DNA of 64,000 bases from Acidimicrobiales bacterium (lineage in GTDB: Bacteria > Actinomycetota > Acidimicrobiia > Acidimicrobiales > Aldehydirespiratoraceae): assembly GCA_022425325.1 (NCBI GenBank), contig JAKMFW010000071.1, positions 1-64,000 of the forward strand, in the 5' to 3' direction. Under the pieces are notes generated by a model. It was not told where the DNA came from. It saw only the letters and a list, made by a program, of their open reading frames with translations, and did not search any database. The position numbers were made by a program, and so were the translations under genes. Position 1 is the first letter of the stretch; the number at the start of each line of letters is the position of its first letter. Below are positions 56,863 through 58,787 of this stretch, piece by piece.

Positions 56863-56891
56863 TTGGTCGACTCCGGTACGTCCGGTAGCGT
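56863..56891 (+). promoter_or_regulatory. infA promoter
   Basis: TTGGTC (56863-56868) and TAGCGT (56886-56891) with a 17-nt spacer, in the gap after adk. The transcript would start about 65 nt before the infA start codon. Confidence 0.6.
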
Positions 56892-56954
56892 TGTCGATTG
56901 GCCTGCACCAAGGTCACCACGGAGATCCCGCTGGATCCCCGTGTTTTCAGGAGG

Positions 56955-56964
56955 TTCAACTCTG
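56955..56964 (+). promoter_or_regulatory. infA ribosome binding site and CTG start codon region
   Basis: AGGAGGT at 56949-56955 is followed by a 6-nt spacer (TCAACT) and CTG at 56962. No ATG or GTG lies at a proper distance; the only upstream GTG (56941) is ahead of the Shine-Dalgarno and has none of its own. Confidence 0.65.
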
Positions 56965-57186
56965 CCGAAGCCCAAAGAAGATGCCATCGTCCTCGAAGGG
57001 ACCGTTACCGAATCGCTTCCGAACGCCATGTTCCGGGTCGAGCTCGAGAACGGTCACGAAGTGCTTGCGCACATCAGCGGGAAGATGCGAATGCATTACA
57101 TCCGCATCCTTCCTGGCGATCGCGTCCAAGTGGAGCTGACCCCATACGACCTCCAGCGTGGTCGTATCACCTATCGCTACAAGTGA
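56962..57186 (+). CDS. infA: translation initiation factor IF-1, apparent CTG start
   Basis: A 74-residue IF-1 that binds the 30S A site. After the start it reads [20 protein letters not shown], and [20 protein letters not shown] is the OB-fold core; the family usually starts with Met directly before the Lys/Pro segment. The codon at that place is CTG, with an ideal AGGAGGT 6 nt before it. The in-frame alternatives are GTG 56941, adding seven residues that would translate the Shine-Dalgarno itself, or an ATG 99 nt upstream at the promoter. CTG is therefore the best start, which would make infA expression sensitive to start-codon discrimination. Confidence 0.9.
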
Positions 57187-57280: not shown

Positions 57281-57394
57281 ATGAAGGTTCGACCCAGCGT
57301 TAAGAAGATCTGTGACAAGTGCCGTGTCATTCGTCGACACGGCCGCGTCATGGTCATCTGCGAAAACCCGCGTCACAAGCAGAGGCAAGGCTGA
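57281..57394 (+). CDS. rpmJ: 50S ribosomal protein L36
   Basis: A 37-residue L36 with the zinc ribbon C-x2-C-x12-C-x4-H (CDKC, then CENPRH), the zinc-containing form. The ATG at 57281 is preceded by CGGGAGC. The 94-nt gap after infA holds GC palindromes (GGCCGATCGGCC) but no T-run. Confidence 0.95.
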
Positions 57395-57397
57395 GAC

Positions 57398-57766
57398 ATG
57401 GCACGCATTAGCGGCGTAGACATTCCCCGAGACAAGCAGGTGGGCATCAGCCTCACTTACATCTACGGCATCGGCCGGACGATTGCGGTCGACATCTGCA
57501 ACGCCACCGGTATCGACGCCACCACGCGTGTGCGTGATCTCACCGATGACGAGATCGCGAAGATCCGCGGCTTCATCGATGCCGACCTGCGGGTCGAGGG
57601 CGACCTCCGTCGTGAGGTCAGCCAGGACATCAAGCGCAAGATGGAGATCGGCTGCTACCAGGGCCTCCGTCATCGTCGTGGCCTTCCGGTCCGCGGCCAG
57701 CGCACCCACACCAACGCTCGTACGCGCAAGGGTCCCAAGAAGACCATTGCGGGCAAGAAGAAGTAG
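57398..57766 (+). CDS. rpsM: 30S ribosomal protein S13
   Basis: A 122-residue S13 of the 30S head: [20 protein letters not shown] and [20 protein letters not shown], normal length. Three nt after rpmJ. Confidence 0.97.
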
Positions 57767-58172: not shown

Positions 58173-58787
58173 ATGTCGCGCTACACCGGACCTCGCGCCC
58201 GCGTCTCGCGGCGCCTGGGAACCAACATCTGGGGCACGAAGGGCGAGACCATCGCCCTCGACAAGCGCCCGTACCCGCCGGGCGAGCATGGCCGTTCGCG
58301 TCGGCGTGGCTCGGTCTCCGAGTATCTCCTGCAGCTGCAGGAGAAGCAGAAGGCTCGCTTCAGCTACGGCCTCACCGAGCGGCAGTTCCGCAACATCTTC
58401 GCCGAGGCCTCGCGTCGGCAGGGCGTGACCGGCGAGAACATGCTGCGCTTCCTCGAGCTTCGGCTCGACAACGTCATCTACCGCGCCGGTTGGGCCGCCA
58501 CCCGCCCCCAGGCTCGCCAGTTCGTGGGTCACGGTCACGTCAACGTGAACGGCCGCCGCGTCGACATCCCGAGCTACCGCCTTCGCAAGGGTGACGTGGT
58601 CGAATTGCGTCCTGCTGCACAGGACTTCACCGTCGTACAGTGGAACCTCGACGTCTTGGATCGCACGCCCCCGGCGTGGCTCGATCGCAACGAGCAGTTC
58701 CAGGTCACCGTGCGCGAGCTGCCCATCCGTGAGCAGATCGACATCCCCGTCCGCGAACAGCTCATCGTCGAGCTCTACTCGAAGTAG
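58173..58787 (+). CDS. rpsD: 30S ribosomal protein S4
   Basis: A 204-residue S4, a primary 16S rRNA binder. It lacks the N-terminal zinc cysteines (zinc-free form) and has an S4 RNA-binding domain around RLDNVIYRAGWAATRPQARQ and GHVNVNGRRVDIPSY. Two nt after rpsK. Confidence 0.97.
   Translation: MSRYTGPRARVSRRLGTNIWGTKGETIALDKRPYPPGEHGRSRRRGSVSEYLLQLQEKQKARFSYGLTERQFRNIFAEASRRQGVTGENMLRFLELRLDNVIYRAGWAATRPQARQFVGHGHVNVNGRRVDIPSYRLRKGDVVELRPAAQDFTVVQWNLDVLDRTPPAWLDRNEQFQVTVRELPIREQIDIPVREQLIVELYSK

Follow-up and report, generated by a model that had tools for sequence, protein, structure and literature searches.

A CTG start codon of the IF-1 gene infA is conserved across an actinobacterial order and may place infA under joint feedback with infC

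Comparison of the infA locus in a 64,000-nucleotide stretch of DNA from an Acidimicrobiales bacterium (hereinafter, the window) with the corresponding loci of its relatives strongly supports initiation of IF-1 translation at a CTG codon, position 56962. Among the genomes whose infA start was read, 110 of 117 in the window's order and 146 of 196 in the class use a codon other than ATG, GTG or TTG. We propose, with a probability of roughly 0.65, that IF-1 starts at this CTG and that infA and infC, the gene for IF-3, are thereby held under joint negative feedback through the rejection of poor start codons by IF-1 and IF-3, a loop in which the sensitivity of infA to these factors is presumed from the pattern of codons. 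The principal competing explanation is a plain lowering of expression.

The infA locus

We take the gene order in the window to be secY, adk, infA, rpmJ, rpsM, rpsK, rpsD, rpoA, rplQ, where all names except infA come from motifs and from the usual gene order (Table 1). The infA product scored 130.9 bits against the equivalog profile TIGR00008 (cut-off 61.15), with residues 5-73 aligned to positions 1-69 of the 69 in the profile, and 100.1 bits against PF01176, for which it is the sole match in the window's genome (listed as 95.26% complete). For 11 of the 12 IF-1 sequences matched in the PDB, the alignment starts at residue 4 or 5 of the query, and in 9 of these 11 this point corresponds to chain residue 2-5. 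Because these alignments begin near both N-termini, CTG 56962 lies where the IF-1 family begins. Six bases separate this codon from the Shine-Dalgarno sequence AGGAGGT; the codons that follow it are CCG AAG CCC AAA GAA GAT, and the gene ends with TGA at 57184-57186.

Table 1. Features of the infA locus in the window
Feature	Coordinates	Strand	Basis
infA, translation initiation factor IF-1, 74 residues	56962..57186	+	TIGR00008, PF01176 and PDB IF-1 matches
infA start codon CTG	56962..56964	+	Sequence and comparison with relatives
Shine-Dalgarno AGGAGGT	56949..56955	+	Sequence
Predicted leader hairpin directly 5' of the Shine-Dalgarno	56918..56943	+	Folding z-scores
Promoter-like block TTGGTC - 17 nt - TAGCGT, putative infA operon promoter	56863..56891	+	Conserved in leaders
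rpmJ (L36), next gene after infA, ATG start, control gene	57281..57394	+	Named by motif
rpsM (S13), ATG start, control gene	57398..57766	+	Named by motif
rpsD (S4), ATG start, control gene	58173..58787	+	Named by motif

Start codons of infA in the order and the class

The search for infA covered 41 relatives (39 matched) and 247 genomes of the class (238 matched), 278 different genomes in total, and the start was tallied in 196 of these among the matches listed; the remaining 82 had no match, lay outside the listed matches or belonged to genera of which one or a few genomes were read. Starts were called by weighing the strength of the Shine-Dalgarno, the next residue and the codon itself, and the sequence contexts were also inspected. 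Many of the compared genomes are fragmented and are probably metagenome bins.

In the window's order (117 genomes from 34 families), the start is CTG in 107 genomes, TTG in 6, ATC in 3, GTG in 1 and ATG in none. The sequence-only reading of the window had proposed an alignment of infA 5' ends in related genomes, with ATG at this place in relatives as the sign of a sequencing error; the comparison showed CTG to be conserved, and the agreement among relatives rules out sequencing error or chance as its source. Two single-contig genomes in the sample (G066 and G053) both have CTG, as do 14 of the 15 loci labelled Acidimicrobiales, Acidimicrobiaceae or Ilumatobacteraceae among the 80 listed, the fifteenth (L048) having ATC. 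Elsewhere in the class (79 genomes, 28 families), 36 genomes are non-canonical (CTG 26, ATC 4, GTA 4, GTC 2) and 43 canonical (ATG 16, TTG 14, GTG 13). The canonical starts in 7 of the 117 genomes of the order and in these 43 of 79 show that the poor start is dispensable.

In 67 of the 146 non-canonical infA genes, the reading frame from the preceding stop down to the start contains no ATG, GTG or TTG, so that a canonical start is impossible at that end of the gene; the stop lies within 10 codons in 41 of the 67. The other 79 genes have an in-frame canonical codon upstream or an upstream end that was not read. Any change of the first base turns CTG into a canonical start, and only 7 of the 117 genomes of the order show one. 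Among 112 infA genes of equal length from the order, codon 1 is CTG in 103, whereas codon 11, which encodes leucine in 89 of them, varies (CTC 45, CTG 25, CTT 13, and others), and the mean share of the most frequent base at the third positions of codons 2-74 is 0.62. By this comparison, codon 1 behaves as a start and not as a leucine codon. Parsimony on an infA tree required a minimum of 7 changes between weak and canonical starts across the 196 class genomes, compared to a mean of 45 in 30 shuffles of the labels, and 3 changes within the window's order; the tree is rough given the short gene, excludes the start codon and does not include the genomes of families f67 and f85 discussed below.

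The GTA (L186, L203, L209 and L210) and GTC (L219 and L231) codons occupy the aligned start position in members of families f37, f53, f54 and f61; in L210, ATC directly precedes GTA. GTA is not known to have been described as a conserved start codon. Second copies of infA were left out of the counts in three genomes: that of G003 (L277) starts with ATG, is 77% identical and is perhaps a contaminant, and those of G021 (L280) and G031 (L271) start with CTG. The leader of the copy counted for G021 (L005) resembles one from a different genus (L003), and this copy may itself be a contaminant; the left-out copy has CTG as well. Other genomes of the class also contain second infA matches.

Non-canonical infA starts elsewhere in the phylum

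A survey of 158 genomes of the phylum, supplemented with added stretches, yielded 90 infA loci outside the class, a set that is not random because 13 of the last 20 were chosen to resample families f67, f85 and f77. Of these loci, 55 are canonical, 19 were called non-canonical, and 16, with N-terminal extensions or other contexts, were left uncalled. Family f67 uses ATT (11 genomes) or ATC (one) in all 12 genomes read, with no canonical codon upstream in 11 of the 12. In both genomes read from family f85, the start is apparently ATA (or ATT/ATC just before it), with TTG further up in one of them, and locus L388 of family f77 has CTG with no upstream alternative. Four of the 19 calls are doubtful (L387, L389, L394 and L414). 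The first three, from families f77 and f83, have possible ACG or GTT starts, with an in-frame CTG in L389 as well, and either carry canonical codons upstream or lie on stretches that end early.

Upstream alternatives and the infA leader

Two in-frame canonical codons, TTG 56863 and GTG 56941, precede the CTG in the window, and GTG or ATG is present in frame at codon -7 in all 9 genomes of the window's genus, so that in this genus the protein might start upstream as a longer IF-1 in which CTG encodes an internal leucine. The pattern of codon differences speaks otherwise. In pairwise comparisons within the genus (the pairs are not independent), non-synonymous differences outnumber synonymous ones 73 to 20 over codons -7 to -1, compared to 41 non-synonymous and 671 synonymous over infA codons 2-73, and accordingly the stretch upstream of CTG looks non-coding. 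Moreover, GTG 56941 has no Shine-Dalgarno at the usual distance in the window sequence and pairs in the stem of a predicted hairpin, whose 3' arm ends with this codon; TTG 56863 falls inside the putative promoter block; and in relatives that share the Shine-Dalgarno and CTG, a stop lies close upstream with no canonical codon in between. On the strength of the codon differences, the predicted structure and these relatives, we rejected an upstream start, which we regard as very improbable. The sequence-only reading is thus upheld in placing the start at CTG 56962, behind AGGAGGT with a 6-nt spacer and at the beginning of the family, by the sequence, the IF-1 alignments and the relatives alike, and also in denying GTG 56941 a Shine-Dalgarno of its own; it had missed the order-wide extent of the CTG start and the family hairpin that holds this GTG.

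Among 4 aligned leaders from the genus sample, the promoter-like block is conserved while its surroundings vary, which suggests that the infA transcript begins there; a sigma-70 scan reported no promoter at 56863-56891.

The hairpin adjoining the Shine-Dalgarno raises the possibility that infA is regulated through its leader, with a ribosomal protein encoded in the operon or IF-1 binding the structure or with the structure acting as a terminator, and that the start codon is secondary. The hairpin has a z-score of -4.5 when folded in a 36-nt piece and only -1.43 when folded with a longer leader. Values of -2.0 or lower, with differing stem sequences, were obtained in 16 of the 25 leaders of the window's family (the window, L003, L004, L005, L007-L013, L016, L018, L019, L022 and L280). 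Part of the structure (56924-56937) fits a terminator pattern, with one match found in the window against 0.1 expected. In leaders from several further genera of the family, no T run follows the hairpin, and RNAalifold applied to a MAFFT alignment of 16 leaders, which fails to keep the hairpin in register, did not recover it and returned just a weak stem around the Shine-Dalgarno. An Rfam search with the infA leader produced no match. The hairpin is largely confined to the window's family, whereas CTG extends over the order: it is as a rule absent from the other families, the mean z-score over 119 leaders of the order is -0.56, and no other family with at least 3 leaders has a mean below -1.2, single leaders of families f6 and f28 reaching -2.6 and -2.2. 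Control primarily through the leader is therefore improbable in our estimate.

Control genes, infC and tRNAs

In 85 loci, all located copies of rpmJ (54 of 54), rpsM (52 of 52) and rpsD (57 of 57) start with ATG, GTG or TTG, and the same holds for the copies located in a further 20 loci (19, 10 and 5, respectively). In all 30 loci read for infB, this gene starts with GTG or TTG, with an additional ATG two codons on in L347. By contrast, infC, the start codons of which were assigned by eye from the Shine-Dalgarno, begins with ATA (28) or ATC (5) in the 33 of 36 loci of the window's order where it was located, the search by motif having failed to locate it in the other 3. As judged from these sequences, the poor start is specific to infA among the tested genes, infC excepted.

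In 28 genomes of the class with a canonical infA start, infC, again called by eye, starts with ATC in 22, ATA in 3 and ATT in 1, L516 and L519 being left uncalled. Thus, infC is non-canonical even where infA is canonical, so the habit is wider in infC, with infA apparently following later in some lineages. In family f67, the apparent infC start is TTC or TTT in three genomes of genus g222 and TTA in G415 (loci L489, L493, L498 and L496), six bases past the Shine-Dalgarno; other genomes of this family have ATA or ATT near the infC start, and infC was not located in two.

These bacteria might instead tolerate poor starts at any gene, an altered initiator tRNA being one conceivable cause. We found nothing in favor of such tolerance beyond infA and infC themselves. 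The neighboring genes, where located, and infB are canonical; of the 37 tRNA matches in the genome, the 30 that could be typed have ordinary anticodons, with CAT for Met; and one altered anticodon would not serve GTA, GTC, ATC and ATT starts. Thus, with canonical controls wherever located and 30 of the 37 tRNAs ordinary, the genome shows no sign of an altered code or initiator tRNA, and general tolerance is hardly credible.

Shine-Dalgarno strength and the tuning of expression

The strongest competitor of the feedback loop is constitutive tuning: infA heads an operon of ribosomal-protein genes, the cell would need less IF-1 than ribosomal protein, and a poor codon would lower the yield with no feedback involved. 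Ribosomal-protein genes indeed closely follow infA, a poor codon would cut the yield in any genome, and some infA genes of the order do start with TTG or GTG. However, the median duplex energy of the Shine-Dalgarno is -10.3 kcal/mol for non-canonical infA in the loci of 57 relatives, compared to -5.8 for rpmJ, -6.3 for rpsM and -10.0 for rpsD, such that the infA Shine-Dalgarno is stronger than those of the first two and on a par with that of rpsD, which is nearly as strong with a canonical start; selection for a lower yield would rather weaken this element. Non-canonical infA genes also have a stronger Shine-Dalgarno than canonical ones (medians of -8.7 and -5.3), a difference that is confounded with lineage. 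Furthermore, the poor codons are found in the genes of both fidelity factors, infA and infC, and not in infB. Plain tuning appears less apt because a weak Shine-Dalgarno or TTG would be the easier route, TTG being a minority start in the order. We consider tuning unlikely, albeit the reading that deserves the most attention after feedback.

A proposed feedback loop

In the loop that we favor, an ordinary initiator tRNA would start IF-1 at CTG 56962, the strong Shine-Dalgarno would recruit ribosomes to infA, leaving the start codon as the limiting step, and IF-3, aided by IF-1, would reject complexes on any codon but AUG, GUG or UUG. With plentiful IF-1 and IF-3, initiation would be strict and little infA and infC (ATA start) would be translated; with both factors scarce, initiation would be lax and both would be made. 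The result would be joint negative feedback on two fidelity factors, with infA translation varying inversely with the activity of IF-3 and IF-1, and selection would keep the infA start codon poor. The replacement of CTG by ATC, GTA or GTC in some relatives, and by ATT or ATA elsewhere, fits selection for any rejected codon. The feedback loop had been suggested by the sequence-only reading, and it is consistent with the conservation of the start, the rarity of its exchange for a canonical codon, the ATT, ATC and ATA starts elsewhere, the habit of infC and the strong Shine-Dalgarno; of that suggestion, the codon pattern is what we observe, and the loop would be its explanation.

Several published observations bear on this scheme. 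IF-1 works with IF-3 in the fidelity of initiation (PMC4611024), IF-3 is described as tolerating no pairs other than Watson-Crick ones at the first and second positions of the codon (PMC10158994), CUG complexes are reported to be less stable than those on AUG, GUG and UUG (PMC11497404), and CUG is the annotated start of 20 genes, or 0.024%, in 69 bacterial genomes (cited in PMC9845219). Counting against our main explanation, a review gives AUU, AUC and AUA as the non-canonical starts of bacteria, and CUG is not in this list (PMC4611024). With respect to the class of genes under IF-3 discrimination, infA has, by comparison of genomes only, a start other than AUG, GUG or UUG (146 of 196, with no alternative in 67), and this start is kept across relatives (110 of 117).

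Relation to known systems

The nearest parallel is infC of Escherichia coli, which has an AUU start and is autoregulated by IF-3 (PMC5472188): in both cases, a gene for an initiation factor has a non-canonical start that is, or in infA would be, rejected by the fidelity function to which its own product contributes. The differences are that IF-1, the product in the present case, assists codon discrimination rather than performing it, and that the codon is CTG (ATC, GTA or GTC in relatives) instead of AUU.

In Streptomyces, sigR has a GTC start and is repressed by IF-3, and infC starts with ATC and is autoregulated, the starts of both having been mis-annotated (PMC5472188). Like infA here, sigR is an actinobacterial gene whose non-canonical start is retained among relatives; in contrast, it encodes a stress sigma factor, so that no loop runs through the fidelity factors, and its start is described for one genus, whereas that of infA is kept over an order. 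The main text of that study does not mention infA. The chloroplast infA genes of Chlorella and tobacco, with a UUG start (PMC9845219), resemble the present case as IF-1 genes that start with a codon other than AUG and differ in being organellar and in that UUG is canonical in bacteria and not discriminated by IF-3, according to the review (PMC4611024). We recognized no description of a non-canonical start of a bacterial infA in searches of an open-licence collection that lacks most subscription papers and preprints.

Implications

Taken more broadly, we lean slightly towards the view that in Actinomycetota infA has been put, repeatedly and independently, under the start check exerted by IF-1 and IF-3 themselves, such that the pair of infA and infC would act as a homeostat of initiation stringency in which the poverty of the codon, and not its identity, is selected. 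GTA and GTC appear as conserved infA starts in a few families. On the practical side, gene finders limited to ATG, GTG and TTG must miss infA or misplace its start in no fewer than 67 of the 196 genomes read in the class. To our knowledge, the control of the IF-1 level is far less understood than that of IF-3. The retention of a poor start across an entire order in an essential gene, along with ATT and ATA in separate families, points to a specific loop that can be tested by the change of a single codon.
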